A DNA stretch of 64,000 bases from Siminovitchia fordii DSM 16014 = CIP 108821. Lineage in GTDB: Bacteria; Bacillota; Bacilli; Bacillales; Bacillaceae_C. The DNA is taken from NCBI RefSeq assembly GCF_000374565.1, contig NZ_KB894689.1, positions 62,001 through 126,000 of the forward strand, written 5' to 3'. Positions 35,666-53,363 of this stretch are shown in pieces (positions within the stretch are counted from its first letter, which is position 1; the number at the start of each line of letters is the position of its first letter). A program made the translations under genes and the position numbers. The notes beneath the pieces are model-generated. The model was not told where the DNA came from. It made no database searches and saw only the letters and a program-made list of their open reading frames with translations.

Positions 35666-35690
35666 TTCATACGTCTCCTTTAATAATGGC

Positions 35691-36743
35691 TTATTTGAAG
35701 GCTTCATCTATATATTTGTTTGTCCAAATAACGTCTTCCGCTGTATCTTGTTTTTTAGTAACACCAGATAAATCTTTATATTCAATTAACGGATCTTGGG
35801 CGTTGTCCCATGCTTCTTGATTCATTTCTCCATAACCTTTGAAAGTATCTTTCAATCCGATTAACGATTTTTCAATAATATCTACATCGACGCCTTCAAA
35901 ATAAGGGGAGATTGATTTTGCCGCTTCTGCTGGATTATCACGTGTAAACTCCATTCCTTTCCCAATAGCTCTTACGACTTTTAAAGATGTTTCATGATTT
36001 TTTTCTAGATAATCTTTATCGGCAAACACAACTTCCCATGCCATGTTCTTGTACATCGGTTCCTCCATCATGTCAATCATGATTTCACCAACTTCTTTAT
36101 CTTCTGCATGTAGGCCCATCGGAGGTGAGGCAACCCCTCCATCCACAATTCCTTCTTGCATACCGCCGATTTTTGATCCATCACCCGATAGCTTGACTGT
36201 TTTAAAATCTTTTGGGTCGATGTTATGTAATTTCATTAAGTATCTGGCATAGACATCACCGGAATCACCTACAAGATTTGTACCGATAGTACTGCCGGCC
36301 AATGCTTTTATTTTATCTTCAAACGGTGAATCTTTAGACAAGCCGTTTTCTTTTATATATTTTTTAGAAAAAGTGATTTGAAAAGTTAGGGCAGAGTTTA
36401 AAGATTGGATTGCGACTAAGTTTTCACCTTTATCGAGAGGAGCAAACATACTCCTTGGTCCCGAGACTGCAAACTGTGCTTCACCAGATAATAGGGAAGC
36501 AATTACCTGGGCTCCCCCACCGCCGGAGGCTATTTTGGCTTCAATACCTTCCTCTTTGAAAAAGCCCTGTTCGATCGCTACGTAAAACGGGGCTACCGAC
36601 AAAATTCTCGCTGGTTCGGCAAAGGTGATTTCTTCTAGTTCTTCACCCTTCGAACTCGTTTCTTTTTTCTCCTGGCCGCAGGCAGACATGGTTATGGCTA
36701 AACAAAATATAGCTGCTAGAACACCCAACTTTTTTCTCAACAT
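35691..36743 (-). CDS. ABC transporter substrate-binding lipoprotein (NMT1/THI5-like)
   Basis: This is a 350-residue lipoprotein with a signal peptide and lipobox ending at Cys near 22 (AITMSAC), then a periplasmic-binding fold of the SsuA/NMT1 type (EPARILSVAPFYVAIEQGFFKEEGIEAKIASGGGGAQVIASLLSGE-like region). AGGAGG precedes ATG 36743; an upstream in-frame ATG lies in the operator region. It is the first gene of the minus-strand transporter operon, under a TTGACA promoter with an operator at the start site. The ligand is inferred to be an aromatic acid or related compound. Confidence 0.85.
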   Translation of the reverse strand: MLRKKLGVLAAIFCLAITMSACGQEKKETSSKGEELEEITFAEPARILSVAPFYVAIEQGFFKEEGIEAKIASGGGGAQVIASLLSGEAQFAVSGPRSMFAPLDKGENLVAIQSLNSALTFQITFSKKYIKENGLSKDSPFEDKIKALAGSTIGTNLVGDSGDVYARYLMKLHNIDPKDFKTVKLSGDGSKIGGMQEGIVDGGVASPPMGLHAEDKEVGEIMIDMMEEPMYKNMAWEVVFADKDYLEKNHETSLKVVRAIGKGMEFTRDNPAEAAKSISPYFEGVDVDIIEKSLIGLKDTFKGYGEMNQEAWDNAQDPLIEYKDLSGVTKKQDTAEDVIWTNKYIDEAFK

Positions 36744-36771
36744 ATGGCCATCCTCCTGTTTATTATCCTTG

Positions 36772-36799
36772 TTGTTTTGTATGCAAAACATCGTTTTGT
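36772..36799 (-). promoter_or_regulatory. Operator O1, proposed IclR-family binding site
   Basis: Read on the minus strand, the 28-base site begins ACAAAACGATGTTTT and ends CATACAAAACAA. It is 24/28 identical to the site before the cupin operon. It covers roughly +8 to +35 relative to the predicted start of the binding-protein operon, so a bound repressor would block initiation or early elongation. Confidence 0.65.
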
Positions 36800-36813
36800 C
36801 GATGTTTTGGGTA

Positions 36814-36843
36814 ATTGTATCTTGCTCCTGATATAATTGTCAA
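36814..36843 (-). promoter_or_regulatory. Sigma-A promoter of the minus-strand ABC operon
   Basis: On the minus strand TTGACA (36838-36843) and TACAAT (36814-36819) are 18 bases apart; predicted start near 36807. Confidence 0.7.
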
Positions 36844-37054
36844 TATTTTTTTGCATTTGGGATGATTGGGTCTTTAGTGAAAAAAAGCTATTCATATAAG
36901 TTAAATACCGATAAGTGATAGGAAATAAGGTGAGAAAAAAGAGAGAATTTTGTCGGATCTTGATTTGGGACAAGGTAAGCCCCCTTACTGTTATTGAATA
37001 TATTACTTGTTCATTGACACGACTTTTGATGTAAAAAAGTGTTTCAACTTCATG

Positions 37055-37083
37055 TTGACAAATCTGAATTTAACAATAATAAT
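37055..37083 (+). promoter_or_regulatory. Sigma-A promoter of the plus-strand ABC operon
   Basis: TTGACA (37055-37060) and AATAAT (37078-37083) are 17 bases apart; predicted start near 37090. Confidence 0.65.
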
Positions 37084-37097
37084 TAGAATATCTTTAT

Positions 37098-37125
37098 TTG
37101 TAACAATGTTTTATATTTGAAACAA
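37098..37125 (+). promoter_or_regulatory. Operator O2, proposed IclR-family binding site
   Basis: The 28-base site begins TTGTAACAATGTTTTATA and ends TTTGAAACAA, 20/28 identical to the site before the cupin operon. It starts about 8 bases after the predicted start of transcription. Confidence 0.6.
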
Positions 37126-37224
37126 ATTGTAAGCGTTTCAATTCAAAGGGAGGATTGATACACAAAAAAAGTTGATGGGACATGTAACGAATTTCTGAAT
37201 TGATCATTTAAAAGGGGGAGCAAA

Positions 37225-38229
37225 ATGAGAAAACCGGTTCTGTTTATGTTCATGGCCTTCTTAGCAGTTGGGATGGTAGGGTGTGGTTCTGCAAGTAAAG
37301 AAAGTTCTTCCGGAGGTGGGGAAGAAGGGCAACCAGCAAAAATAAGAATTGGAATTGGTTATGCGACAGAAGAGCCTTTATGGCTTATGGAGGCTGCTCC
37401 TGAGCTTGCAAAAAATAATGGAAAGAAATACGAGCTTGAGTTCCAGCAGTTCAGGGCAAATGCAGATCGCCTAAATGCCTATCGGGCAGGACAGCTTGAA
37501 GGTGGGACACTGGGACAAGGGGCCTTGATCATGGCTGCGGATCAAGGAGTCGATTTAGAGGTTGTTGCAAGTGTGGCAAAAGATACTCCAAATAAGGGAT
37601 TCAATTTTCCTTTCATGGCGAAGAAAGACTCAGGGATAAAATCGGTTAAAGATTTAAAAGGGAAAACAATCGGTATCCCAGATTTTAAATCTCCGACTGA
37701 TATGTGGGCACGTACCGCTTTGCGAAATGCGGGGTTGGACCCGGATAAGGATGTGAAGTTTTCTGTATTGCCAACTCCAGCTGTAGAGGAATCCATAAAA
37801 AGCGGAAAAATTGATGTAGGCCTTATTCCACAGCCCTTTTATGCCGAAGTTGAGTCAAAGGGAGAACTCAAAACGGTCTTTACTTCCAAAGATGGAGTCC
37901 CTATAGATGAGGACTTTTTATCACTTTTTTTCAATCCTGAGTTCATTAAAGAGCACGAGGAAGCTTTCAAAGCTTTTATCGAAGACTACCAAACTACGAT
38001 GAAATACTACTTGGAAAACGAACAGGATGCCAGGCAAAAGTTACTGGATAAAGAGTTTGTATTGGCAGAAAAAGAGGTCTATCTAAACATGGAAGATAGC
38101 AACCGCGCTGAGGATATTTCTCTTAATCGCGAAAGCTGGGAACAAGTTCAGGAAATTATGTTACAAGAGAAATGGATTACGAAAGAAGTGGACTTGGACG
38201 CTCTTCTTAATGAAACATATGTGAAATAA
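37225..38229 (+). CDS. ABC transporter substrate-binding lipoprotein (second system)
   Basis: This is a 334-residue lipoprotein with lipobox AVGMVGC (Cys near 20) and an NMT1/SsuA-like binding fold; the hinge region contains DLKGKTIGIPDFKSPTDMW and GKIDVGLIPQPFYAEVES. AAAGGGGGAG precedes the ATG. It is not closely similar to the minus-strand binding protein, so the two systems probably bind different ligands. It is the first gene of a four-gene transporter operon with one ATPase and two permeases. Confidence 0.85.
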   Translation: MRKPVLFMFMAFLAVGMVGCGSASKESSSGGGEEGQPAKIRIGIGYATEEPLWLMEAAPELAKNNGKKYELEFQQFRANADRLNAYRAGQLEGGTLGQGALIMAADQGVDLEVVASVAKDTPNKGFNFPFMAKKDSGIKSVKDLKGKTIGIPDFKSPTDMWARTALRNAGLDPDKDVKFSVLPTPAVEESIKSGKIDVGLIPQPFYAEVESKGELKTVFTSKDGVPIDEDFLSLFFNPEFIKEHEEAFKAFIEDYQTTMKYYLENEQDARQKLLDKEFVLAEKEVYLNMEDSNRAEDISLNRESWEQVQEIMLQEKWITKEVDLDALLNETYVK

Positions 38230-38351
38230 ATCATTTTCTGAAGAAATTTCCAGGGCAGGGACGTTGCAGTATATGAAAATATAGGTTCTGCATATATCAT
38301 TTCGGGGGTGCGGTCATGCCGAACAACAAAGTGGTTAAAAGGAGTTTTCCT

Positions 38352-39161
38352 ATGGAGACGAATAAAGAAACTGCCATCAAGATTGAGAGCCTTCGTAAAC
38401 TTTTCAAGCGGAAATCCGAGGAAATAGAAGTTATTAAAGGGATAGACCTGGACATCAAAGAAGGCGAGTTCGTCAGTATAGTTGGCCCAAGCGGCTGCGG
38501 GAAAAGCACTTTTTTGCATATCGTCGGAGGGTTTATAAATAAAACTTCAGGAACAGTCACGGTTCGAGGGAAAGAAGTTGATAAGCCAGCTCCGGATCGT
38601 GGGATGATGTTCCAGGAGGCAGCTCTGTTTCCATGGCGGAAGGTTTATGGAAATGTGGCATGGGGGCTGGAGGTTCAAGGATATTCCAAAGGGGAAATAA
38701 GAGAGCGTGTCGAACATTATTTAACTTTGGTAGGATTATGGGAATTTCGCAATCACCTTCCTTCAGAACTTTCAGGAGGTATGAGGCAAAGGGTTTCTTT
38801 GGCAAAAGTTCTTGCTTTTAATCCCGACGTACTTCTAATGGACGAGCCATTTGGTGCATTGGATGCACAAACAAGAGAGACGATGCAATCGGAGCTTCAA
38901 AGGATATGGTCGGAATCGAAAAAAAGTGTGCTTTTTGTTACCCATGATATTGAAGAAGCCGTCTATTTAAGTGATTATGTAGTAGTTTTGACGAAGCGGC
39001 CGGCGAAGGTCAAAGAGATTATCCCTATAAAGCTCCCCCGACCTCGGGAAATTGAGATAAGGAAATCATATGAGTTTGTTGATTATCGAAATGATATATG
39101 GGACTTGTTACATGGTGAGGAAAATGTAAAGAGCATGGGAGGTTCAATCTATGCAAAGTAG
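38352..39161 (+). CDS. NitT/TauT-type ABC transporter ATP-binding protein (second system)
   Basis: This ATPase has about 269 residues, with Walker A GPSGCGKST, Q-loop MMFQEAALFPW, signature LSGGMRQR, Walker B VLLMDEPFGALD and switch His FVTHDIEEA. ATG 38352 is chosen because AAAAGGAG lies seven bases upstream; ATG 38316 with GGGGGTG is an alternative. The 3' end overlaps the first permease gene by 11 bases. Confidence 0.87.
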   Translation: METNKETAIKIESLRKLFKRKSEEIEVIKGIDLDIKEGEFVSIVGPSGCGKSTFLHIVGGFINKTSGTVTVRGKEVDKPAPDRGMMFQEAALFPWRKVYGNVAWGLEVQGYSKGEIRERVEHYLTLVGLWEFRNHLPSELSGGMRQRVSLAKVLAFNPDVLLMDEPFGALDAQTRETMQSELQRIWSESKKSVLFVTHDIEEAVYLSDYVVVLTKRPAKVKEIIPIKLPRPREIEIRKSYEFVDYRNDIWDLLHGEENVKSMGGSIYAK

Positions 39162-39933
39162 TATGAATGCGCTGAAGTTTACCGTTTATGCCTTGGTTGA
39201 ACTGCTTTTGTTCATATTGCTTTGGCAACTTTTATCTGCTCAGACGTGGTTTCCAGCCTATTTATCCAGTCCTTCATCTGTCTTTGGTCAGATCAAAGAA
39301 ATGATCGTGACAATGGAGATATTTCCGCATATAGGTATAAGTCTTTATCGCACACTAATCAGCTTTCTATTGGTAGTCATAATTGGAACTGGATTGGGTA
39401 TTTTAGCAGGTTACTTTAAAGTAATTGGAAATTTTTTTGACCCCCTTATATCTTTTTTTAACCCCATACCAAAGATTGCGCTATTGCCCGTTTTTTTAGT
39501 GTGGTTTGGAGTGAGCGATACAACAAGGGTTCTCATTATTTTTACAACTGCTTTTTTCCCGTGTTTTATTGCAACAATTGATGGTGTTCGAAGCATAAGC
39601 AGACTGCACTTTTGGTCGGCTGAAAATATGGGAGCTAATCAATTCCAAATACTCAGGAGAGTGGTCTTGCCAGCAGCACTTCCAAAAATATTTGATGGGT
39701 GGAGGGTTGCCTTGGCCCTTTGTTTTGTCATGATGTTCTCTTCGGAAATGATTGGAACAACAACTGGAACGGGACTGGGATTTCTAATCTTGAATGCTGA
39801 TTCGTATGGCCGGACAGATATTGTTCTGGCAGCGGTTTTTGTCATTGCAGCCCTTGGCTTTATTTTTGACCGACTTTTAATTGGAATTCGATCACGGGCA
39901 CTTTGGTGGAATAGCCAAGGGGAGGGCAATTGA
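39151..39933 (+). CDS. ABC transporter permease, first of a pair
   Basis: This is a 260-residue NitT/TauT permease with about six membrane segments and the conserved loop AENMGANQFQILRRVVLPAALPKIFDGWRVAL. GGGAGG lies eight bases before the ATG inside the ATPase gene. A second, related permease follows with a TGATG junction. Having two different permeases per system is less common than the homodimer of the minus-strand operon and suggests a heterodimeric channel. Confidence 0.85.
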   Translation: MQSSMNALKFTVYALVELLLFILLWQLLSAQTWFPAYLSSPSSVFGQIKEMIVTMEIFPHIGISLYRTLISFLLVVIIGTGLGILAGYFKVIGNFFDPLISFFNPIPKIALLPVFLVWFGVSDTTRVLIIFTTAFFPCFIATIDGVRSISRLHFWSAENMGANQFQILRRVVLPAALPKIFDGWRVALALCFVMMFSSEMIGTTTGTGLGFLILNADSYGRTDIVLAAVFVIAALGFIFDRLLIGIRSRALWWNSQGEGN

Positions 39934-40679
39934 TGGGGAAAGTATGGAAAGGCATCAATAAATATCAGTCTATTATTCTTATAGCAATATTATGGCAAGT
40001 CATCGCTATGTCCCGTTTATTTCCGGAGCAGTTATTTCCAGGCCTAGAGGTGATTTTCCTTTCTTTTATCGAGTTGATCGTTTCTTCGGATTTATGGTCA
40101 AATATTTTAGTGACATTGTATCGAATTTTAGGAGGTTTTTTCCTGGCTGCTGTTATTGGGGTTCCAATAGGCATCTTAATGAGTCGTTCTTCTATATTTG
40201 ATAACATCATGCAGCCGATTTTTACAGCTGGATATCCAATTCCTCGGGTAGCTATTTATCCGATCATCGTTTTACTTTTTGGACTTGGTTCAGCGTCAAA
40301 AATATTTATCATCTTTTTGGAGTGTATTTTCCCTATCGTTGTAAACACATACTACGGGGCAAAAAGGGTGGCTCAACTGCATATTTGGTCTGGACAAAAT
40401 ATGGGAGCCAGCGATCGGCAGTTATTTTGGAAAGTTTTTATACCCGGAACGATGCCTGCTATATTTACAGGCTTTAGAATTGCCTTACCTATTGCAGTCG
40501 TCATTTCAGTCCTGACGGAAATGATCAGCTCAAGCGATGGGATTGGCTATTTGTTGACTTATTTAACAGCTTCTTTGTCACAAAGCAAAGTATTGGCTGC
40601 TGTAATCATTGTTTCTCTTCTGGGATACTTGTTAGATCGTTTGTTATTGTTTGTACGAAAAAAATTGGTTTATTGGTGA
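39933..40679 (+). CDS. ABC transporter permease, second of a pair
   Basis: This is a 248-residue permease of the same family. It has about six membrane segments and the EAA-type loop SGQNMGASDRQLFWKVFIPGTMPAIFTGFRIAL. ATG 39933 overlaps the preceding stop (TGATG) and is preceded by GGGGAGGG. It probably pairs with the preceding permease. It is the last gene of the operon before a hairpin at 40694-40714. Confidence 0.85.
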   Translation: MGKVWKGINKYQSIILIAILWQVIAMSRLFPEQLFPGLEVIFLSFIELIVSSDLWSNILVTLYRILGGFFLAAVIGVPIGILMSRSSIFDNIMQPIFTAGYPIPRVAIYPIIVLLFGLGSASKIFIIFLECIFPIVVNTYYGAKRVAQLHIWSGQNMGASDRQLFWKVFIPGTMPAIFTGFRIALPIAVVISVLTEMISSSDGIGYLLTYLTASLSQSKVLAAVIIVSLLGYLLDRLLLFVRKKLVYW

Positions 40680-40693
40680 AAGAAAGATATAAT

Positions 40694-40716
40694 TGGCCCG
40701 GTCTTACTGGGCCATA
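40694..40716 (+). terminator. Weak terminator hairpin after the permease pair
   Basis: TGGCCC (40694-40699) pairs with GGGCCA (40709-40714); the following TATTA is only weakly T-rich, so readthrough into the hydrolase gene is likely. Confidence 0.45.
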
Positions 40717-40752
40717 TTAGAAAAAACAACAAAGATAGTGAGGTTTTACTCT

Positions 40753-41541
40753 ATGCCAACAATACAACTTAGTGAGTTTACTATTCATTATGCAAAAGAA
40801 GGGAATGGACATCCTCTTATCATACTGCATGGATTGGGGAATAATTCCCAGTCATGGAAAAAACAATTAAGCTCCTTAAAAGAATACTATACTGTAATTG
40901 CTTGGGATGCACCAGGATACGGGAATAGTTCGGATCCTAAGGAAGAATTAAAGCATTTTTCTCAATTCGCGGATATACTTAAGGAATTTGTGGATCAATT
41001 AGGATACAAATCCATTTATCTTTTGGGGCATTCCATGGGGTCGGCCATTGCCCTGGATTTTGCTCACCGGTACCCCGATATAGTAGATAAGCTGATTATT
41101 GCTGATCCTACCAGAGGTGCGGCAGGTCTATCAAAAGAAGAGAACAGAAAGAGGCTCCAAGAGCGCTTGGATTCAATCGATCATCTAGACCCGTCAGAGT
41201 TGGCGAATCAAAGGGTTAGAAATCTTCTCTCTCCCAACGCTTCTGAAGAGGTGATCAAAGAAGCAGAACGAATTATGTCTCAAGTTAGACCACCAGGCTA
41301 CCGTTCTGTATCTTATTCACTTGGGAATTTAGATCAAATGAATATATTACCAACTCTTTCCGTCCCAACGCTTGTCATATGTGGTGAATTGGACAAGGTG
41401 ACACCTGTTTCCGAAGCGGAAATTTTCCATCAGTCCATTCCGAATTCAAAATTGGAGATTATCCCGGACACAGGCCACCTATGTTATCAGGAAGACCCTG
41501 AAACATTTAATGAAAAAGTCATTCATTTTTTGGGGAAATAA
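40753..41541 (+). CDS. Alpha/beta hydrolase, candidate meta-cleavage product hydrolase
   Basis: This is a 262-residue alpha/beta-fold hydrolase. The oxyanion region is LHGLGNNSQSW, the nucleophile elbow GHSMGS (Ser near 100), the acid Asp in CGELDKVTP and the His in DTGHLCYQ. The length and LxxLD triad spacing match C-C bond hydrolases (BphD/TodF/MhpC-type) that act after extradiol ring cleavage, though esterases look alike. GTGAGG precedes ATG 40753. It lies 3.2 kb from the extradiol dioxygenase gene, within the same island, which supports the ring-fission-product role. Confidence 0.65.
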   Translation: MPTIQLSEFTIHYAKEGNGHPLIILHGLGNNSQSWKKQLSSLKEYYTVIAWDAPGYGNSSDPKEELKHFSQFADILKEFVDQLGYKSIYLLGHSMGSAIALDFAHRYPDIVDKLIIADPTRGAAGLSKEENRKRLQERLDSIDHLDPSELANQRVRNLLSPNASEEVIKEAERIMSQVRPPGYRSVSYSLGNLDQMNILPTLSVPTLVICGELDKVTPVSEAEIFHQSIPNSKLEIIPDTGHLCYQEDPETFNEKVIHFLGK

Positions 41542-41562
41542 AAGTGTGTATATTTGAAACTG

Positions 41563-41594
41563 GGCAGAGAAGTGAGGTTCTCTGCCGTTTTTTA
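41563..41594 (+). terminator. Terminator after the hydrolase gene
   Basis: GGCAGAGAA (41563-41571) pairs perfectly with TTCTCTGCC (41578-41586), followed by GTTTTTT. Confidence 0.85.
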
Positions 41595-41624
41595 TTGGTG
41601 TTTACATGAATTTTCGGTAAAATC

Positions 41625-41656
41625 TTGAGTCTTGTCCAGTTTAATCATATGATTAA
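41625..41656 (+). promoter_or_regulatory. Possible iclR-gene promoter with overlapping palindrome
   Basis: TTGAGT (41625-41630) and TATGAT (41648-41653) are 17 bases apart. The -10 lies in a perfect 16-base palindrome, TTAATCATATGATTAA (41641-41656), which could be an autoregulatory site. It does not resemble operators O1-O4. An alternative -10 (TAAAAT) is present upstream. Confidence 0.4.
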
Positions 41657-41668
41657 GGAGGATATTTG

Positions 41669-41707
41669 ATGATAAACAATTTAGGGAGATGCTTTCTAGA
41701 TGAGTGA
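41669..41707 (+). CDS. Twelve-codon leader reading frame before the IclR gene
   Basis: AAGGAGG (41655-41661) lies seven bases before ATG 41669; the frame encodes MINNLGRCFLDE and stops at 41705-41707, overlapping the IclR start (ATG 41700). The best ribosome-binding site in this region serves this mini-frame, so it may couple translation to the regulator gene. No conserved peptide is recognised. Confidence 0.35.
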   Translation: MINNLGRCFLDE

Positions 41708-42473
41708 TTTAGAGAAAGAAAAATATAGTGCGAATTCCTTGGTCAGAGGTTTGGAAATACTGAAACTCTTCAATGCAGACAACCCGACTTTATCACTCTC
41801 CGAAATTTCAAAAAGTCTGGGTGTCAGTAGAACAGTACCATATCGTCTATTGTACACATTGCAAAGTATGGGTTATCTTGATCAAGATGAGAATACGAAA
41901 CGTTATAGCCTGAATCCTAAGGTGTTGGAAATCGGTTTTGCTTATTTAAATAGTCTGAAGCTGCCTGAGATCGCACAACCTTATATTGAAAAATTAAGGG
42001 ACGAGCTTGGAACGTCCTGCCATCTATCTATTTTGGATGGCCAAGAGGTCGTATACATTGGAACGGCACCAGTGAGGAATGTATCAATTATCAATGTCAA
42101 TATAGGAACAAGACTTCCGGCACAGGCTTTGGCAAATGGTAGAGTCTTGCTTGCTTATCAGCAGGAAGAAAGATTAATGGATAAGCTTAAAAGTCTGGAT
42201 GCTGGGTCCACTGCAACAAAAGATATTACTACTTTTCAAAAAGAGCTGGAGGTTATCCGTAAACAAGGATATGCACTTACGGAAGGTGACTTCCTTCCGG
42301 GTGTCCATTCAGCAGCAGCGCCGATATTTGATTATACTGGGAGCATAAAAGCGGCATTGAATGTTGTCGCATCAGAACCGTTATTCCACGAAAATTTTCT
42401 TGAGAAAGTAGCTTTACCCAAAGTGGTTGAAGCAGCAAAAGAGTTATCTGGTCATTTAGGTTATAAAAAGTGA
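41700..42473 (+). CDS. IclR family transcriptional regulator
   Basis: This is a 257-residue regulator with an N-terminal winged helix (about 10-70; LSLSEISKSLGVSRTVPYRLLYTLQSMGYL) and a C-terminal ligand-binding IclR domain (about 85-250). IclR proteins commonly control aromatic-acid catabolism and bind short AT-rich palindromes. It lies in the middle of the island whose four promoters share one operator type (O1-O4), so it is the best candidate for their regulator. The ATG directly follows an in-frame stop; GGGAGATG is the local site. Confidence 0.88.
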   Translation: MSDLEKEKYSANSLVRGLEILKLFNADNPTLSLSEISKSLGVSRTVPYRLLYTLQSMGYLDQDENTKRYSLNPKVLEIGFAYLNSLKLPEIAQPYIEKLRDELGTSCHLSILDGQEVVYIGTAPVRNVSIINVNIGTRLPAQALANGRVLLAYQQEERLMDKLKSLDAGSTATKDITTFQKELEVIRKQGYALTEGDFLPGVHSAAAPIFDYTGSIKAALNVVASEPLFHENFLEKVALPKVVEAAKELSGHLGYKK

Positions 42474-42523
42474 AACAAAGAAATCTTACAGGCATAATAG
42501 CTTGTAAGATTTCTTTGTTTTAT
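42473..42523 (+). terminator. Long perfect terminator after the IclR gene
   Basis: An 18-base arm (42473-42490, starting AAACAAAG) pairs perfectly with 42503-42520 around a 12-base loop. Its right arm runs into a 22-base palindrome (42514-42535). Confidence 0.8.
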
Positions 42524-42535
42524 ATATAAAACAAA
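42514..42535. promoter_or_regulatory. Perfect 22-bp palindrome, operator O3a
   Basis: Left half TTTGTTTTATA and right half TATAAAACAAA are exact inverse complements. It is 18/22 identical to the corresponding part of the site before the cupin operon. It lies about 45 bases upstream of the MFS promoter -35 and partly overlaps the iclR terminator. Confidence 0.6.
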
Positions 42536-42557
42536 TTTTCTCCGGTAAAAAAATCTA

Positions 42558-42586
42558 TTGACAATCCTCGACAGAAATATTACCAT
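42558..42586 (+). promoter_or_regulatory. Promoter of the MFS transporter gene
   Basis: TTGACA (42558-42563) and TACCAT (42581-42586) are 17 bases apart. An operator follows at the predicted start. Confidence 0.55.
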
Positions 42587-42595
42587 TTTTCTTAT

Positions 42596-42623
42596 ACAAA
42601 ACAATGTTTTAAAATAATTTTTA
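42596..42623 (+). promoter_or_regulatory. Operator O3b, proposed IclR-family binding site
   Basis: The first 14 bases (ACAAAACAATGTTT) are identical to those of the cupin-operon site; the rest diverges. It overlaps the predicted start of the MFS transcript (near 42593). Confidence 0.55.
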
Positions 42624-42699
42624 ATGAAAGGGGTTTCTGTTTTCTGAATATTTCATGTGTTTTCAACCTGAAAAATATTCGATAAAGGAGGATGAAACT

Positions 42700-43962
42700 A
42701 TGTTGCAAAACAACAAACGATGGCTGTATATAGCCGTACCTATTTTCTTTTTCTGGTTTTTTGGCCAAATTGACAAGATGGGGATCTCCGTCATCCAGAC
42801 GGATCCAGGATTCTTAAATGCACTGGGACTGACTGGTGAGGACAAGAGTGCCAAAATAGGTATGATTACATTTGTGTTTACTGTTTCGTATGCGCTTTCA
42901 AATCTTTTTTGGGGAGTTATTATTGATAAACTTGGAGCTCGTCAAACAGCCATTTTGGGGTTGGGAGTCTGGACAGTCACAATGATTATGGCTGGATTAT
43001 CAAATACATATGAAATGTTTCTGATAAGCAGAATTATCCTGGGGTTGGGAGAAGGTATGATGATTCCGGTATCGGGAAAATTCATATCAAGCTGGTTTAA
43101 CCGCCGGGAATTGGGAAAAGCCCAAGCGTCATGGATCACAGGCAATTACTTAGGTCCGGCTTTGGGGGCTATGATTCTTGTGTTCCTCATTGCTACTCTC
43201 CATTGGCAAGCAGCGTTTTTTATCCTTGCCGGTTTTAATCTGTTTATTAATATCCCTATGTTTTTATATTTAACAAGAAATACACCAGAAGAGCATCCGG
43301 GAGTAAGTGAACAAGAGTTGGCCTACATTCGTTTGACAGACGAAGAGGACGAGGTGACTGACCGGAAATTCACTCAGGATTTCCGCTATTGGATCGTTTG
43401 GTTCGGAATGCTAATCGCTTCTTTCCTGTTTTTCGGTATTAGCATATGGCTGCCGACGTATCTGGTTGAGGCACGCGGATTTGCTCAAGAGGGCATGAAA
43501 AACATTACATCAATTTCTTGGTTATTTGCTCTGTTATTTGTCCTTGCCTGCGGATATTTATCTGACAAGACGAGAAGACCCAGTTTAATGGCCACTATAT
43601 TGTTCGGTATGACAGCGCTTTTTCTTGCTTATGCCATCGCGGCGCCGAATGCAATTGTTGCCGGCCTCTGTATGGGACTTGCCATGGGAGCGCAAGGAGG
43701 GGTCTTTCACTTGAGTAACCTTTTTATTGTTAAATTTTCTACACCTGAAACTGCAGGGCGTGCTGCCGGTTTGATGGGATTTACGAATATCATGGGGGGC
43801 TTCTCCAGTTATATCATGGGCTGGCTTCGTGATGCATCAGGTGGAAGCTTCAGTTCCTCAATCATTATGCTGATTGTTGCCTCACTACTCGGACTGCTGG
43901 CTTATCTTTTTACACTCAAAAAAGAAGCTGCCGAAACCCGCCTATTCAATAAAGCGGTTTAG
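42700..43962 (+). CDS. MFS transporter, anion:cation symporter-like
   Basis: This is a 420-residue major facilitator with about twelve membrane segments. The first inter-helix loop has the DKLGARQTA motif and the helix-4/5 region RIILGLGEGMMIPVSGKFISSWF typical of the ACS group (organic anion importers such as phthalate, hexuronate or tartrate permeases). AAAGGAGG lies eight bases before ATG 42700. It is monocistronic, between two strong terminators, under the shared operator type. A likely role is uptake of the aromatic acid or an intermediate. Confidence 0.82.
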   Translation: MLQNNKRWLYIAVPIFFFWFFGQIDKMGISVIQTDPGFLNALGLTGEDKSAKIGMITFVFTVSYALSNLFWGVIIDKLGARQTAILGLGVWTVTMIMAGLSNTYEMFLISRIILGLGEGMMIPVSGKFISSWFNRRELGKAQASWITGNYLGPALGAMILVFLIATLHWQAAFFILAGFNLFINIPMFLYLTRNTPEEHPGVSEQELAYIRLTDEEDEVTDRKFTQDFRYWIVWFGMLIASFLFFGISIWLPTYLVEARGFAQEGMKNITSISWLFALLFVLACGYLSDKTRRPSLMATILFGMTALFLAYAIAAPNAIVAGLCMGLAMGAQGGVFHLSNLFIVKFSTPETAGRAAGLMGFTNIMGGFSSYIMGWLRDASGGSFSSSIIMLIVASLLGLLAYLFTLKKEAAETRLFNKAV

Positions 43963-43964
43963 CC

Positions 43965-44011
43965 AAAAAACGTATGGACGCATTATCTGGGCGTCTGTAC
44001 GTTTTTTTTAT
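43965..44011 (+). terminator. Terminator after the MFS gene
   Basis: AAAAAACGTA plus TGGACGC pair with GCGTCTG plus TACGTTTTTT across an eight- to nine-base loop. Confidence 0.85.
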
Positions 44012-44044
44012 TTATTTTCTATTGAATTTTCTTAAAAGTAAATA

Positions 44045-44073
44045 TTGACAACGCTATCATAATCAATTAGGAT
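44045..44073 (+). promoter_or_regulatory. Promoter of the aromatic dioxygenase operon
   Basis: TTGACA (44045-44050) and TAGGAT (44068-44073) are 17 bases apart; predicted start near 44080, directly at the operator. Confidence 0.6.
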
Positions 44074-44111
44074 TGGTTTATAAACAAAACAATGTTTCAT
44101 ATACAAAACAA
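44073..44111 (+). promoter_or_regulatory. Operator O4, double proposed IclR-family site
   Basis: Two imperfect palindromes sharing one base (44073-44092 and 44092-44111) form alternating half-sites. The 28-base core at 44084-44111 begins ACAAAACAATGTTTC and ends ATATACAAAACAA. It covers the predicted transcription start of the cupin-dioxygenase operon. Confidence 0.65.
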
Positions 44112-44147
44112 AAGGTGGTTTTGTGTGTGGAAAAGGAGGATGTCGAA

Positions 44148-44681
44148 ATGGCAAAAGAGAAATTTTCGGTTGAGGAGTTTGAGAAAAAGTACGTAGCAAG
44201 GCTGAAGGATCGCACGCTTGATTGGAACGTATTGAAGTTTCAGGAGGAAATTGACCCGAAATACAAGCGGGCACAGATGCGCTACATTGGCCGGGGAGCC
44301 ACTGCAAATGCGGATTCCAATGTAATCACAGCAGAGCACTTTACATTGAGCACAATGGTATTGCCTCCGGGATGTGTCGGCCCTCTTCACTTGCATGATG
44401 ATGTTGAAGAAGTGTTCTTCATTTTAAAAGGGCAGGTTACAGCACTTATTCAAGAAGTTGACTCCGATGAAGTGCATGAAATCAAACTAAATGAAAGGGA
44501 TTGCATCAGCAGCCCTCCTGGAGTTTACCGCGGAATCCGCAATGACGGAGAAGAGGAAGCGTTAATGCTTGTAATGCTGGGTGCCAATAAACCTAATCTT
44601 CCGACCTATCCGGAAGGCAGTGCACTCGAAGAACTCCGCAAGCAGCGTGCCGCGGAAAGAGAAGCTATCATTAGCAAGTAA
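44148..44681 (+). CDS. Cupin domain protein
   Basis: This is a 177-residue single-cupin protein. Cupin motif 1 is GPLHLHDDVEEVFFILKGQVTALI (metal-binding HxH with Glu) and motif 2 lies near ERDCISSPPGVYRGIRNDG. AAAAGGAGGATG precedes ATG 44148. It is the first gene of the dioxygenase operon. Such cupins may be small ring-cleavage dioxygenases, isomerases or ligand sensors; the role here is not known. A hairpin follows before the next gene. Confidence 0.75.
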   Translation: MAKEKFSVEEFEKKYVARLKDRTLDWNVLKFQEEIDPKYKRAQMRYIGRGATANADSNVITAEHFTLSTMVLPPGCVGPLHLHDDVEEVFFILKGQVTALIQEVDSDEVHEIKLNERDCISSPPGVYRGIRNDGEEEALMLVMLGANKPNLPTYPEGSALEELRKQRAAEREAIISK

Positions 44682-44703
44682 ATATTCACAGTGATTGAAC
44701 GGT

Positions 44704-44728
44704 GACAAGATGGGTCTTGTCTTATTTT
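44704..44728 (+). terminator. Possible internal terminator between cupin and extradiol dioxygenase genes
   Basis: GACAAGA (44704-44710) pairs perfectly with TCTTGTC (44715-44721), followed by TTATTTT. It may reduce downstream expression; no new promoter is obvious in the 66 bases that follow. Confidence 0.55.
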
Positions 44729-44793
44729 GAAGAAGTGAGGCAAGACCTTAAAAGAGTCAAAGCTCTCTTACTATTAATAGGAGGTCCGGACGT

Positions 44794-45714
44794 ATGCTAG
44801 GCATTACTCATTTACGCCATATCAGCTTGTTCACCCCTAATTTTGATGAGCAAGTTGCATTTTATGAAAACATATGGGGCTTGGATAAAGTGGATGCCCC
44901 CCAAGAAAAAGATACGTCTTATTTTCGAGGTGCAGGACCTGAGCATCATATTCTAAGTCTTCACAGAGGAGAAAAGACTGGACTGCATCATATCGCTTTT
45001 GGAATGGTGGATAAAAATGCGGTGGACCGGGCGGCGGAAATTCTCCAATCTAAAAACGTGTTAATCGTTGATCAACCGGGTTACTTCAATGAAGCAGGCG
45101 GCGGTTACGGACTTCGTTTCCTGGATCCTGAGAACCGTCTCATTGAGTTGTCTGCATGGGTTGAAGTACACACCTCCATCTGGAGTAAAAAGAATGTGGA
45201 CCCTGTTAAATTAAATCATGTTGTCATGAATACAAAAAATCTGGACATGATTGTGGAGTTTTATACGGACGTGCTTGGTTTTAGAGTTACGGATTGGAGT
45301 GAACATCAAATGTCATTTCTAAGATGTAACAAAAAACATCATTCGATTGCTTTTAACCAAGGGGAACATGCCTCTGTCAATCACATTGCATACGAACTTG
45401 ATTCGGTGAATGAGGTCATGAGAGGAATTGCCAATGTAAGGGAAGCTGGTCTAAAAGAATTATGGGGGCCGGGAAGACATGGTCCGGGAGATAATATTTT
45501 TTGCTATTTCCAAGATCCCGGTGGGTTTGTAATGGAGTATACCTGTTATCTTGAAACGATTGAAGATGAATCAGAGTGGCGGGCAAGGGTATGGAAACGT
45601 GTACCTCATCTTATGGACCAATGGGGCATAGCGGGTCCTCCAAGCCCTGAAGCACGGAAGGCGATGGGCGGTACACCGGATCCGGGATGGGTGACCACGA
45701 TCAATACAAATTAA
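44794..45714 (+). CDS. Type I extradiol ring-cleavage dioxygenase (catechol 2,3-dioxygenase-like)
   Basis: This is a 306-residue two-domain VOC dioxygenase. The Fe(II) ligands in the C-terminal domain are His142 (LNHVVM), His197 (VNHIAYEL) and Glu248 (FVMEYTCYLE). It would cleave a catechol next to the two hydroxyls using O2. AGGAGG precedes the start. The Rieske dioxygenase and cis-diol dehydrogenase downstream can supply the catechol, and the alpha/beta hydrolase at 40753 could process the ring-fission product. The catechol structure is unknown. Confidence 0.85.
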   Translation: MLGITHLRHISLFTPNFDEQVAFYENIWGLDKVDAPQEKDTSYFRGAGPEHHILSLHRGEKTGLHHIAFGMVDKNAVDRAAEILQSKNVLIVDQPGYFNEAGGGYGLRFLDPENRLIELSAWVEVHTSIWSKKNVDPVKLNHVVMNTKNLDMIVEFYTDVLGFRVTDWSEHQMSFLRCNKKHHSIAFNQGEHASVNHIAYELDSVNEVMRGIANVREAGLKELWGPGRHGPGDNIFCYFQDPGGFVMEYTCYLETIEDESEWRARVWKRVPHLMDQWGIAGPPSPEARKAMGGTPDPGWVTTINTN

Positions 45715-45823
45715 GTGATTTCATTCAAAGCGTTTTTTGAAGAATAAAAAGCAAGAGGCTTTCTCAATAATTGTCTTCTTGCTTATTTCTTCCATAGGAT
45801 CCCCAAGGAAGGAGAAAGAACAA

Positions 45824-46615
45824 ATGGATCTGGGTCTTAAAGGCAAAGTGGCCGTAATCATGGGTGGCACATCAGGGGTAGGTTTGAAGACGGCGGAAAC
45901 ATTCCTGCAGGAAGGCGCCAAAGTTGCCATTTGCGGCCGCAGTAAAGAGCGGATAGAGAAAGCGAGCAACCAGTTATTGTCATTCGGAAATAAAGGAGAT
46001 ATTTTTACCGGGCAGTGCGATGTTACATCGAAGGAAGATGTCGATACATTTATAAATGGTGCAGCAAAGTATTTCGGAGGCATCGATATTTTGGTGAATG
46101 CAGCGGGTCAAAGCGTTATGGGATACTTCTTCGATATCACAGATGAGCAGTGGCAAGAGCAAATTCAATTGAAATATTTTGCCATCATTTACGCCGTTCG
46201 TGCGGTACACCCTCATTTAGTCATGAGAGGGGGAGGTAGGATCATTAATATCAATGCGACACTTGCGAAAGAGCCGGAGCGGCACATGGTAGCAACAGCT
46301 GCTACACGTGCTGGACTTTTGAACTTAAGTAAAACATTATCTCAGGAACTTGCTGAGAATAATATCTTGGTAAATTCCGTCAGTCTTGGGCTCATTAGGA
46401 CTGATCAATGGGAGAGAAGACGATTAAAAAATGCACCGGAGCAAGAGCCGGAAGAATACTATGCAGAATTGGCAAAGAAACGGAATATCCCGCTTGGACG
46501 GGTCGGAGAAGCGGAAGAAGTGGCTGATGTGATTGTTTTCCTTGCTTCTGATAAAGCGAGTTATGTCGCAGGTTCGACGATTGAAACGGCAGGAGCACTT
46601 GGGAAAGCACTTTAA
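45824..46615 (+). CDS. SDR family protein with degenerate catalytic residues
   Basis: This is a 263-residue SDR fold. The nucleotide loop GGTSGVG (near 14-20) and NAAG are present, but where classical SDRs have Ser, Tyr and Lys the sequence reads NATLAKEPERHMVATAATRAG, so Tyr is replaced by Thr, Lys by Arg and the Ser by Ala or Thr. It may lack ordinary oxidoreductase activity or use a different mechanism. AAGGAAGGAG precedes ATG 45824; the frame is open upstream without a site. It is in the dioxygenase operon, and its end is about 30 bases from the ThDP enzyme start. Confidence 0.75.
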   Translation: MDLGLKGKVAVIMGGTSGVGLKTAETFLQEGAKVAICGRSKERIEKASNQLLSFGNKGDIFTGQCDVTSKEDVDTFINGAAKYFGGIDILVNAAGQSVMGYFFDITDEQWQEQIQLKYFAIIYAVRAVHPHLVMRGGGRIININATLAKEPERHMVATAATRAGLLNLSKTLSQELAENNILVNSVSLGLIRTDQWERRRLKNAPEQEPEEYYAELAKKRNIPLGRVGEAEEVADVIVFLASDKASYVAGSTIETAGALGKAL

Positions 46616-46643
46616 ATATATTGGATCGAGGGTTGGATGTGTA

Positions 46644-48329
46644 ATGGAAACGAAACAACATGTGGAATATACAGTTGCAGATGCAGTTGTTAAAGAGCTG
46701 GTAAATGCTGGTGTTGAAGTCGCTTTTGGCATAGTGAGCATTCATAATATGCCTATTTATGACGCAATACTCAGAGATGGGAACATCCAGCTTATTTGTT
46801 CAAGGGGAGAAAGCGGAGCTGTCAATATGGCCGACGGTTATGCACGGGCGACAGGAAAGTTGGGGGTCGTCATCACCAGTACCGGTACCGGAGCAGGAAA
46901 TGCTGCCGGTTCACTGGTCGAAGCCTGGGCTGCAGGAGTACCGGTGCTTCATCTGACAGGTGAGGTGGCATCTCCGTATCTTGGGACAGGAAAAGGATAC
47001 ATACATGAATGTAAAGACCAATTGTCGATGATGAACGGAGCTTGCAAGAACGCGGTTCGGTTGAGACAGCCTGAACAGGCATCCTCTTTGATGAAAAAGT
47101 CGATTCAAGAGGCTTTGGCAGCGCCTGCCGGCCCGGTATCTCTTGAAATACCTATAGACTTTCAATCTGCCATCATTGAAGATGTAACTCTTGAAGAAAT
47201 AAAAGTTGAAAGTTTACCAGACACAAAACCGATTATTCCTGAGAAAGTTGCTGCGGTATTGGCTAAATCGAAAAGACCGGTCATTTGGGCAGGAAACGGT
47301 GTCAATGCTTCGGGAGCTTCGAAGCAACTTCGAAGACTGGCTGAACTGATTGGAGCTGCCGTTATTACAAGTCAATCAGGTAAAGGTTCCATCCCTGAAG
47401 ATCATGAACAATGTATTGGACACTTTGCTGCTTATGAATCAACAAAAACATTTATGGAAAAAGCGGATTTACTCATCAGTGTCGGGGTCAGATTCAGAGG
47501 CAATGAAACTTCAAATTGGAAAGTGCCTGTACCCAAAGAACATATTTCAATAGATGCAGACTGGTTAGCGGTGAACAGGAATTATCATGCGACCATCGGA
47601 TTGGTTGGAGATGCGAAAGAAATTTTAAGCAGCATGGTTGATATGCTGGAAAGACAAGCATTAGAGCCAAAGTCTTCCTATCTGGAAGAAGTCCGCCAGT
47701 TAAGAGATGAAGTCCGGACCCAACTACGGGAGACACTTGGACCTTATGAAATATTTTTGGATGGAATGAAGGAAGTGCTGCCTCGTGACACTATCTTGGT
47801 CCGGGACGTAACGGTTCAGGCGAATGTTTGGGGCAGCCGGTTATATGAAATCTATGAACCAGGCACTTCGATCCATGCTTCCGGAGGAGGAATCGGACAG
47901 GGGCTTCCCACGGCTATCGGAGCACAAATTGGCTGTAAAGATAAAACGGTCGTACTAATGGCAGGCGATGGAGGATTTATGGTCAATGCAGGGGAAATGG
48001 TGACAGCAGCCGAAGAAAAGCTTCCGTTGATCATCATTTTATTCGATGATTCAGGGTACGGTGTTCTTCGCAACATACAAGATGCGGCATATGGACGCCA
48101 GGTGGCGGTAGATTTATTAAGCCCTGATTTTGTAAAAATGGCTGAGGCTATGCACTTTGATGCAGTGCGGATTCATTCAGCAGATGAGTTTGTGGAAGAA
48201 CTGAAAAAATCCTTGGACAATCGTAAACCTTCAATGATTGTTGTAGATATGGATAAGGTTGGACCTATGGCAAAGCCTTTTGGAGGGCCTCCAGGAGCAG
48301 CAGAGGCATTTAAACCGAAAAAATTATAA
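46644..48329 (+). CDS. Thiamin-diphosphate-dependent enzyme, acetolactate synthase/benzoylformate decarboxylase-like
   Basis: This is a 561-residue three-domain ThDP enzyme. The cofactor-activating Glu56 is in SRGESGAVNMADGYAR; the ThDP/Mg motif GDGGFMVNAGEM lies near 440. The region normally GYPGG is VSIHNMPIYDAI with a His, unlike acetolactate synthase. It decarboxylates or carboligates a 2-oxo acid. It is followed 15 bases later by an aldehyde dehydrogenase, suggesting 2-oxo acid to aldehyde to acid. ATG 46644 is chosen by homology; its ribosome-binding site (GGAT/GAGGG) is weak. Confidence 0.78.
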   Translation: METKQHVEYTVADAVVKELVNAGVEVAFGIVSIHNMPIYDAILRDGNIQLICSRGESGAVNMADGYARATGKLGVVITSTGTGAGNAAGSLVEAWAAGVPVLHLTGEVASPYLGTGKGYIHECKDQLSMMNGACKNAVRLRQPEQASSLMKKSIQEALAAPAGPVSLEIPIDFQSAIIEDVTLEEIKVESLPDTKPIIPEKVAAVLAKSKRPVIWAGNGVNASGASKQLRRLAELIGAAVITSQSGKGSIPEDHEQCIGHFAAYESTKTFMEKADLLISVGVRFRGNETSNWKVPVPKEHISIDADWLAVNRNYHATIGLVGDAKEILSSMVDMLERQALEPKSSYLEEVRQLRDEVRTQLRETLGPYEIFLDGMKEVLPRDTILVRDVTVQANVWGSRLYEIYEPGTSIHASGGGIGQGLPTAIGAQIGCKDKTVVLMAGDGGFMVNAGEMVTAAEEKLPLIIILFDDSGYGVLRNIQDAAYGRQVAVDLLSPDFVKMAEAMHFDAVRIHSADEFVEELKKSLDNRKPSMIVVDMDKVGPMAKPFGGPPGAAEAFKPKKL

Positions 48330-48344
48330 CGAGGAGGCAAGAGC

Positions 48345-49790
48345 ATGATTGAAACTTACCCGTATACATCAGGAAAATGCTTGATAAATGGGGAATGGAG
48401 AGAAATAGAAAAAACGGCAAAGGTCATTAATCCTGCCCATACAAATGAAGTAGTCGGCGAGGTCGCTTTGTGTTCTCCTGAATTGGTCAGTGAGGCGATC
48501 GATTCTGCGGCAGCGGCGTTCAAGGGATGGTCCCGTTCAAACATACACGATCGGGCAGCCCGGATGAATGAAGCAGCTGGAGAGTTGGAGCGAATCATAG
48601 AAGAAAGCGTTTCCCTGCTTGTCAGAGAAAATGGGAAAGCATTGGTTGAGGCCAAAATTGATTTGCTCAGATGTGTGGACGTGATGAGAGGGTCGGCACA
48701 GGAGTTACTTGAATGGTGGGAACCGGAAAAATACACTGGTAAACAAAATGTTCAGGTCAGAAGAAGGCCAAAGGGAGTAACAGCGGTTGTCACTCCGTGG
48801 AATTCACCAATGATCTTAACTTTTAAACGGGTAATCCCTGCCGTACTTACAGGCAATACAGTTATCGTGAAGCCTGCAACAAACTGCCCACTGACCATCA
48901 TGAGTTTTCTGAAAGTAGTGGCCTCTTATTTTCCGGCGGGTGTCATAAACATTGTGACAGGTTCTGGAAGGGTGATCGGGGACATTCTTTGTTCTGATTC
49001 CCGTGTAAGAACTGTGGCATTTGTTGGAAGCACTGAAACCGGAAAAGATATTATGCGGAAGTCGTCCAGTACTCTTCAAAAATTATACATGGAGTTGGGA
49101 GGCAACGATCCAGCTATTGTTTTTGAGGATGCCAATCTTGATAAAGAAGCAATTGAGCGCCTGAAAATGGGGGTTTTACGTGCAGCCGGACAAGTCTGTT
49201 CCGCTGTTAAAAGGATTTATGTCCATGAATCCCGCTATGATGAGCTTGTGGAGAAAATGACGAAAGCTTTTGAAAGAGTGGTCGTAGGCGATGGTATCCA
49301 GCCTGAGGTAACGATGGGTCCATTAAATAACGAAGCACAATTCAACTACGTCACTGAACTGCTTGAAAGAACCTCCCAGTCAGGTGCGAATGTTGTAACA
49401 GCAGGAATTCAGTTGGATCCGGATACATGGAATCAGGGTTATTTCATGCTCCCTTCTATCGTAACCGGAGTTCAACAGGATAGTGAAATCGTTCAAGCGG
49501 AGCAGTTCGGTCCTGTCATCCCGATATTGCCATTTTCCACTGTTGATGAAGCGGTAGAAATGGCTAATGACAGCAGATTCGGGCTCAGAGCTTCTGTCTG
49601 GACGGAAAATGAAGAAACAGCAATCGAAGTGGCTGATCGACTTGAGGCAGGGGCAGTCTTCCACAATAACCACACTATTTTTAAAGACTTGAATCTTGAT
49701 TTTCCTGGGTTAAAAGAAAGTGGCCTCTCCCGTGAAACAAGACATGGCAGCCTTGAACTATTCGCGGATTCATATGGGTTTGCTGATTAG
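48345..49790 (+). CDS. NAD(P)-dependent aldehyde dehydrogenase
   Basis: This is a 481-residue ALDH with oxyanion Asn in TPWNSPM (near 153), base Glu250 (MELGGND) and nucleophile Cys285 (GQVCSAVKR). The sequence around the Cys is closest to the succinate-semialdehyde/benzaldehyde dehydrogenase group. GAGGAGG precedes the start. It sits 15 bases after the ThDP enzyme gene and 15 bases before the aspartate-dehydrogenase-like gene, so it is in the same operon and probably oxidises the aldehyde released by the ThDP enzyme. Confidence 0.82.
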   Translation: MIETYPYTSGKCLINGEWREIEKTAKVINPAHTNEVVGEVALCSPELVSEAIDSAAAAFKGWSRSNIHDRAARMNEAAGELERIIEESVSLLVRENGKALVEAKIDLLRCVDVMRGSAQELLEWWEPEKYTGKQNVQVRRRPKGVTAVVTPWNSPMILTFKRVIPAVLTGNTVIVKPATNCPLTIMSFLKVVASYFPAGVINIVTGSGRVIGDILCSDSRVRTVAFVGSTETGKDIMRKSSSTLQKLYMELGGNDPAIVFEDANLDKEAIERLKMGVLRAAGQVCSAVKRIYVHESRYDELVEKMTKAFERVVVGDGIQPEVTMGPLNNEAQFNYVTELLERTSQSGANVVTAGIQLDPDTWNQGYFMLPSIVTGVQQDSEIVQAEQFGPVIPILPFSTVDEAVEMANDSRFGLRASVWTENEETAIEVADRLEAGAVFHNNHTIFKDLNLDFPGLKESGLSRETRHGSLELFADSYGFAD

Positions 49791-49805
49791 GAAGGATGGA
49801 ATTAC

Positions 49806-50591: not shown

Positions 50592-50615
50592 TAAAGAGCA
50601 GGGAGGATATAAACA

Positions 50616-51917: not shown

Positions 51918-51943
51918 TAAAGTGATTAGAAAGGGGAAGGGAC

Positions 51944-52453: not shown

Positions 52454-52490
52454 TGGTTGGATCAATACAGTCAAACTAAAAGTCATGAAA

Positions 52491-52518
52491 GGAGCTTCAT
52501 CTTAGAAGTTGAAGCTCC
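52491..52518 (+). other. Perfect hairpin between dioxygenase beta and diol dehydrogenase genes
   Basis: GGAGCTTCA (52491-52499) pairs with TGAAGCTCC (52510-52518) without a T-run after it, so it is more likely an mRNA processing or stability element than a terminator. Confidence 0.45.
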
Positions 52519-52538
52519 AAGTGCGAAAGAGGTTATCG

Positions 52539-53330: not shown

Positions 53331-53363
53331 TTGAAGTTTCCTTGAAAAGGAGTAAAATTCCGC

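Follow-up and report, generated by a model that had tools for sequence, protein, structure and literature searches.

The window analysed here is a stretch of 64,000 nucleotides of Siminovitchia fordii DSM 16014 (positions 62001-126000 of contig C5; genome 4.5 Mb). Between 34.0 and 54.3 kb it carries two NMT1-type ATP-binding cassette (ABC) transporters, an alpha/beta hydrolase gene (abh), an iclR gene, a major facilitator superfamily (MFS) permease gene and a set of ring-cleavage genes, as assigned with Pfam and NCBIfam. Five sites at four promoters of this cluster share one operator, which consists of three CAAAAC boxes in alternating direction over ~26 bp, and the present work concerns this operator and its probable regulator, the IclR protein.

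ABC transporter 1 is encoded on the minus strand by sbp1 (35691..36743), the gene for an NMT1-type solute-binding protein (Pfam PF09084), followed by genes for an ATPase (34841-35707; PF00005) and a permease (34011-34841; PF00528). All remaining genes lie on the plus strand. The ABC transporter 2 genes, comprising sbp2, an ATPase gene and two permease genes, are likely to form one regulated unit with abh (37225..41541); sbp2, the ATPase and abh were assigned through Pfam, and both permeases through likeness to the permeases of relatives. A predicted terminator (41563..41586, plus strand) lies between abh and iclR (41700..42473), which encodes the predicted regulator of 257 amino acids (PF09339 and PF01614). 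A further predicted terminator belongs to iclR (42474..42519, plus strand), and the MFS permease gene follows (42700..43962; PF07690). The ring-cleavage genes (44148..54317; Pfam and NCBIfam) encode a cupin protein, a vicinal oxygen chelate (VOC) extradiol dioxygenase, a short-chain dehydrogenase/reductase, a thiamine diphosphate enzyme, an aldehyde dehydrogenase, an aspartate-dehydrogenase-like protein, the alpha and beta subunits of a Rieske dioxygenase, a cis-dihydrodiol dehydrogenase and a second VOC protein, and their spacing and common strand suggest a single operon. The small cupin protein (44148-44681) had no NCBIfam match at E ≤ 0.001. An earlier sequence-only reading had taken the four promoters to serve two ABC transporters, an MFS permease and a dioxygenase operon, and these gene kinds were confirmed by Pfam and NCBIfam.

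A three-box operator at four promoters

Within the operator, boxes 1 and 2 make up a dyad of 15 bp and boxes 2 and 3 one of 16 bp, and box 3 repeats box 1 in the same direction at a distance of 19 bp. The window iclR has its closest named relatives in Siminovitchia terrae (locus L008, 86% identical) and Bacillus norwichensis (locus L009, 83%), and other loci are likewise referred to by number. Two of the five window sites are complete: the operator of ABC transporter 1 (CAAAACGATGTTTTGCATACAAAACA; 36773..36798, minus strand), which was aligned with L008 and L009, and the operator of the ring-cleavage genes, termed the cupin operator (CAAAACAATGTTTCATATACAAAACA; 44085..44110, plus strand). The ABC transporter 2 operator (TGTAACAATGTTTTATATTTGAAACA; 37099..37124, plus strand) has a degenerate, weak box 1. 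At the MFS promoter there are two sites, a distal one upstream of the -35 element with boxes 2-3 (GTTTTATATATAAAAC; 42517..42532, plus strand), which is kept in five relatives and overlapped by the tail of the predicted iclR terminator, and a proximal one just past the predicted start with boxes 1-2 only (CAAAACAATGTTTTA; 42597..42611, plus strand). An extra CAAAAC half-site is present upstream of the ABC transporter 1 operator (36804..36809, minus strand); this fourth half-site, before box 1, belongs to the block AAACATCGACAAAACGATGTTTTG, which is kept in L008 and, except for its first letters, in L009.

All sites listed in the sequence-only reading are present in the sequence, and the 24/28 identity it gave for one pair was reproduced, with 36772-36799 (minus strand) and 44084-44111 differing at 4 of 28 positions. 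The core it described as shared held only in part: AAAACAATGTTTY is exact at two sites (42598 and 44086), has one mismatch at 36785 (minus strand) and two at 37100, and is missing from the distal MFS site (42514-42535). Both MFS sites it listed exist, although each retains a single pair of boxes, and within the interval 44073-44111 that it gave for the dioxygenase operon the site proper is 44085-44110.

The exact TTGACA claimed for all four promoters was found at each of them. The promoters read TTGACA-18-TACAAT for ABC transporter 1 (36814..36843, minus strand, -35 at 36843-36838), TTGACA-17-AATAAT for ABC transporter 2 (37055..37083, plus strand), TTGACA-17-TACCAT for the MFS permease (42558..42586, plus strand) and TTGACA-17-TAGGAT for the ring-cleavage operon (44045..44073, plus strand). 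They match 10-11 of 12 consensus bases, and among 31 promoter-like pairs in 36000-46000 only these four scored at least 10, the other 27 scoring 9.

The register of operator and promoter was studied at 26 cupin promoters, from 21 genomes of the order (own included) and five named loci, with the promoter picked by hexamer match and not by proximity to the site. In all 26 the first base of the best site falls between +3 and +8 of the predicted start, at +5 in 21 of them, and the site matches 18 to 26 of 26 letters, while the start codon lies anywhere between 52 and 101 bases from the site. Exact TTGACA and a GTT-10-AAC spacing were each observed in 25/26. At the other placed promoters an operator begins at 0 to +9, in agreement with the earlier statement that each site lies at or just after the predicted start; for mfs and abh this register covers the window and the named loci, the MFS promoters of the window, L008 and L009 and the abh promoter of L008 having been placed by hand. 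The operators therefore overlap or follow the predicted transcription start, as in IclR-type repressor regulons, and an element fixed to the transcription start rather than to the start codon is the trace expected from a polymerase-blocking repressor.

Specificity and conservation of the operator

The 13-base core was not enriched. At up to three mismatches it gave 106 matches in the window against 99 expected, and at up to one mismatch 85 in the genome against 97 for the reversed control, and so it was rejected as the recognition unit. The only two exact core matches elsewhere in the genome, at C8:41602 and C14:43113, were also rejected as sites, one lying within a long open frame that is penicillin-binding-protein-like by eye and the other between two frames, without box 3. 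By contrast with the core, a 27-base pattern taken from the two complete sites matched, at up to three mismatches, only those two sites in 4.5 Mb (control none), and a looser three-box pattern gave seven matches in the genome, all inside the cluster (control one). The same looser pattern gave five, two of them outside the cluster, and four matches in two genus-mates with iclR (control zero and two) and four in all, each with three mismatches, in three genus-mates without it (control two). Random scatter over the genome, which the sequence-only reading had named as evidence against its proposal, was thus seen for the core and not for the three-box operator.

A matrix was then built from 28 hand-picked sites. 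It excluded overlapping-register matches, the proximal MFS sites with two boxes in L008 and L009, and three matches (L010:7657, L011:12272 and L013:12257) that are found repeatedly upstream of the cupin -35 and could be genuine distal sites. In the S. fordii genome E < 0.01 was reached at five places in the cluster only, the next value being 0.067, with 150 of 6148 first-look candidates scored, so that weak sites could be missed. As the five cluster matches overlap the sites that built the matrix, the informative part is the absence of others. The next best match (C2:59643, E 0.067) was rejected as an operator since it does not have the three-box form; the frames on either side of it are long and, by eye, 2-isopropylmalate-synthase-like and AarF/UbiB-like. 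The three genus-mates without iclR had best E values of 0.05, 0.76 and 0.04, compared with 1e-5 where iclR is present, and neither pattern nor matrix scans detected a site above control level in those three genomes.

The iclR gene was found in 21 of 397 genomes of the order, own included, and the cupin gene in the same 21, its protein being 69-89% identical in the 20 others. Genomes with the cupin gene and without iclR, sought as a negative control, were not present among the 397. A search of plasmids gave 15 records at E ≤ 1e-40, all below 60% identity.

For a held-out test, a matrix built from four window sites alone was run on 26 other loci, six named and 20 from the order-wide iclR search (L014, 34% identical, was left out), and a site was scored as present if the best score within 250 bp upstream was at least 16. 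This limit was reached upstream of cupin in 24/24 loci, mfs in 16/16, sbp1 in 2/2, abh in 15/21 and sbp2 in 2/3 (the third scoring 15.5), a total of 59/66 regions of the operator-bearing gene classes. It was reached at none of 80 other starts, namely voc1 (23), iclR (26), aldh, aspdh, tpp, rhdA, rhdB, atp1, perm1, perm2a and perm2b, where the best score was 15.9, at an iclR. When the same upstream regions were shuffled with composition preserved, 7 of 2920 shuffles reached 16.

The gene order differs between loci and the sites remain with their promoters. The order abh-iclR-mfs-cupin was found in the window, L008-L011 and L013; mfs is divergent from abh-iclR-cupin in L074 and L076-L082; iclR-cupin is divergent from mfs in L068-L070; and an ABC permease gene precedes abh-iclR-cupin in L083 and L086. 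Conservation in related islands, which had been proposed as a check, was thus observed at orthologous promoters of the held-out loci through several gene orders. Sites also adjoin iclR relatives of just 50-53% identity (L083, L085 and L086). In the fourth genome of this type, the iclR locus at a contig end (L084) has no site, and the cupin gene, 13 kb off on the same contig (L139), has one. In L008 and L009 there are no ABC transporter 2 genes between sbp1 and abh, and a near-identical sbp2 promoter, CTTCATGTTGACAAATCTGAATTTAACAATAATAATT, together with an operator now precedes abh. Either the transporter genes were lost from these two loci with the promoter-operator kept, or they were inserted in the line of the window. 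As judged by these comparisons, the regulator and its operator travel together.

The IclR protein as the predicted repressor

The iclR product contains PF09339 (IclR helix-turn-helix) and PF01614 (IclR_C), both above the gathering score, over 257 amino acids, which places it in the IclR family. A search against the sequences of solved structures returned 13 distinct relatives, including a Pca regulon regulator, KdgR and IclR proteins. The recognition helix of the window protein is SRTVPYR, and the form SRT-x-P[YF]R is kept in the aligned relatives (six of the cluster type and 10 of the 20 order loci; own-genome paralogs L003, L004 and L005 were not in the alignment), with GRT in L084. A paralog in the same genome has PKPTAYR. 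Four paralogs, 30-33% identical to the window protein, are encoded in the genome. Around them, over about 1.5 kb, the 28-site matrix found no match at E ≤ 1, and three of them lack a match of 9 bits to the four-site matrix.

The shared operator at four promoters is confirmed, and its interpretation as an IclR regulon is supported by the sequence comparisons. The window IclR (41700-42473) is very probably a repressor that binds the three-box operator at the four promoters, governs a small local regulon for the uptake of an aromatic compound and for ring cleavage, and is released by an inducer. From the sites, their conservation, their link to iclR and their register with the predicted promoters, we infer binding, repression, stoichiometry and induction as follows. 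IclR would occupy the three-box operators at the start region of the four promoters, where the 15-bp dyad, the 16-bp dyad and the direct repeats 19 bp apart leave room for two dimers or one tetramer along ~26 bp. Since the operator starts at 0 to +9 of the predicted start, IclR bound there would stop RNA polymerase from forming the open complex or from clearing the promoter. Its release by an aromatic substrate or a pathway intermediate would co-induce both ABC transporters, the genes for the MFS permease and the abh hydrolase, and the ring-cleavage operon.

A number of points weigh against this interpretation. The transcription starts are predictions from hexamers. The limit of 16 was chosen with the outcome of an earlier four-site-matrix scan already known, and the held-out loci are related by descent, some of them perhaps being one species in two collections. 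Six of 21 abh genes are without a site: L012 scores 15.3, L072 and L073 plainly have none within 250 bp, and in L083, L084 and L086 abh closely follows another gene. Boxes 1-2 are one base closer in the sbp2 sites of L011-L013, three of the 28 in the matrix, and these promoters did not align with that of the window, their sites having come from a scan. The paralog L002 has a 15.7-bit four-site-matrix match 121 bases before its gene. No operator precedes iclR in the window, and 0/26 other iclR starts reach 16.

A separate three-box site, TGAAACAATGTTTCATTTAATGAAACA, was observed at L002:3307-3333, ~1 kb downstream of the L002 paralog gene and 11 bases ahead of a frame that is transporter-like by eye. 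It has a GTT-11-AAC spacing and other letters, and so two IclR proteins of one genome may use the same operator plan with different letters.

IclR-family regulators generally control their own gene, according to the available text of Suvorova and Gelfand 2021 (PMC8222616). For the window iclR, the terminator after abh and the lack of an operator before iclR mean that autoregulation is not supported; note, however, that read-through from abh into iclR is possible. In L010-L013 the gap between abh and iclR is below 60 bases by match ends, and with a site before abh in L010, L011 and L013 (L012 falling just short of the limit) iclR may be co-regulated with abh there.

PcaU and PobR are activators, and it could be that IclR binds the same sites as an activator or dual regulator like them. 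The PcaR/PcaU/PobR model TIGR02431 was the best named match of the window protein (208.1 bits), which counts against repression as the nearest subfamily holds activators; the score is below the cut-off of 284.75, and the protein is therefore not filed in that subfamily. PcaU and PobR have three-box sites in the text available of PMC8222616, and here a distal site lies upstream of the MFS -35 and, in L010, L011 and L013, upstream of the cupin -35 as well. However, one site begins at 0 to +9 of every placed promoter, a position at which the usual contact with polymerase is impossible, and window promoters at 10-11 of 12 consensus bases suit repression. Activation or dual regulation is accordingly rated improbable.

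It is slightly less probable still that another DNA-binding protein owns the sites. A candidate exists in L010-L013 (L010:3557-4336, L011:8171-8950, L012:8294-9067 and L013:8163-8942), where a second IclR, 48-51% identical to that of the window and divergent from abh, has nearly the same recognition helix; this is a further point against the window protein as sole owner, and both regulators may share operators there. On the other side, L008 and L009 show one iclR-like gene in the 20.7 kb examined, sites stand beside iclR in genomes of several families, the three genus-mates that lack iclR also lack a site above control level, and the letters of the sites resemble published IclR half-sites.

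The 5' untranslated position of the sites would also allow the conserved element to act at the RNA level, as a leader element of the transcript. A hairpin of 13-15 bp in the cupin leader pairs boxes 2-3 with sequence just ahead of the ribosome-binding site in the window (44095-44132), L008 (12451-12487) and L009 (12409-12445), with folding z values of -3.7, -3.0 and -4.1, respectively. The DNA site is nevertheless present where this fold is not seen, in the cupin leaders of L010, L011 and L013 (z -1.1, -1.6 and -0.8) and in the other three window leaders, which are not strongly folded (z -1.6, 0.3 and -0.1), and the distal MFS site lies upstream of its promoter. An RNA element is thus very unlikely, and the cupin fold was judged to be a side feature. 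Finally, a chance likeness of AT-rich promoter DNA, which the control-level frequency of the 13-base core might suggest, is scarcely credible, being contradicted by the matrix specificity, by the held-out test with its excess of real regions over shuffles, and by the cupin register.

Relation to known IclR systems and the distal sites

In the text available of PMC8222616, IclR motifs fall into two groups, and three-box sites are predicted in 32 orthologous groups, with PcaU, PobR and HmgR cited. The operators described there resemble the present one in their alternating boxes and in adjacent pairs that resemble group 2 (TGRAACAN1-2TGTTYCA) and group 1, and their regulons likewise concern aromatic metabolism and transport. 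Alternating boxes with adjacent dyads were found in full at 36773-36798 (minus strand) and 44085-44110 and in part at the other three window sites. Against group 2, the 28-site alignment fits in the inner AACANTGTT and the N1 spacing, whereas the outer TG is mostly CA or other letters. Against group 1 (GKTYCRYW3-4RYGRAMC) the letters are similar and the spacing is one base short; boxes 2-3 have GTT-10-AAC where the published subgroup has GTT-11-AAC, and the half-site is CAAAAC instead of TGRAAC. In Table 1 of that paper NpdR and HutR have 16-bp dyads, so the box 2-3 spacing has precedent and no new geometry is claimed. The operator is of the published three-box IclR kind; regulator and targets appear to be a fresh case, though this group may be listed in the supplements of PMC8222616.

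The sites of PcaU and PobR in Acinetobacter baylyi also combine a palindrome with an outer direct half-site; these regulators are activators, whereas the sites described here are at or after the predicted start. Their dyads, TTTGTTCGATWATCGMACAMA and TTGTCCGATSATCGGACAR in Table 1 of PMC8222616, differ from those found here. The sequence-only reading had compared the sites with the operator of KdgR. This is fair for boxes 1-2, whose layout is like the AT-rich KdgR dyad RWWGAAACGNCGTTTCAKKA of the same table, but the motif listed there has no third box and its regulon concerns pectin and galacturonate, and the three-box type fits better. PheR of Sphingobium (PMC13273656) is, in the text available, an IclR-family repressor with a footprint from +23 to -21 of the start that is released by an aromatic compound, as is proposed here; unlike here, its site is 44 bp long and GC-rich with a GCAACG core, one promoter is described there, and the substrate is different. 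Literature searches found no experimental work on an IclR operator such as this one. The present analysis proposes an operator, a target list and a mode of action for an aromatic uptake and ring-cleavage regulator in several families of the order, and could find use in Bacillus as an inducible promoter system. With complete and single-pair sites in one regulon, the way in which IclR proteins read three boxes becomes directly testable.

One tentative interpretation, doubtful as it stands, is that the MFS promoter presents the three-box operator in naturally dissected form, with proximal boxes 1-2 and distal boxes 2-3 on either side of the -35 element, both halves being bound, so that one IclR would read two dyad geometries. 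If true, the MFS half-operators would directly support the proposed alternative dimerisation of IclR regulators. In L010, L011 and L013 both MFS sites have three boxes, and the distal one is reversed, its box 1 ending AAAAT. From centre to centre the two sites are separated by 89-90 bp in the window, L008 and L009 and by 100 bp in L010, L011 and L013, and they might loop across the promoter. A reversed, weaker three-box-like site was also observed upstream of the cupin -35 at the three minus-strand positions left out of the 28-site matrix (16.2, 22.4 and 18.7 bits in L010, L011 and L013, respectively). The distal partner site is therefore not limited to the MFS promoter, and as its centre is 93-94 bp from that of the proximal cupin site, strict helical phasing does not hold.

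Two further elements adjoin the operators. Upstream of the cupin -35, the six aligned loci share the conserved block TTGAATTTTCTYAA (44022-44035), perhaps an UP element or another site. Directly after the sbp2 operator, at 37127-37142, lies TTGTAAGCGTTTCAAT, which we take from the consensus to be a catabolite-responsive-element (cre)-like or LacI-type palindrome; the related L008 and L009 promoters show no such palindrome, and catabolite control through it is possible.

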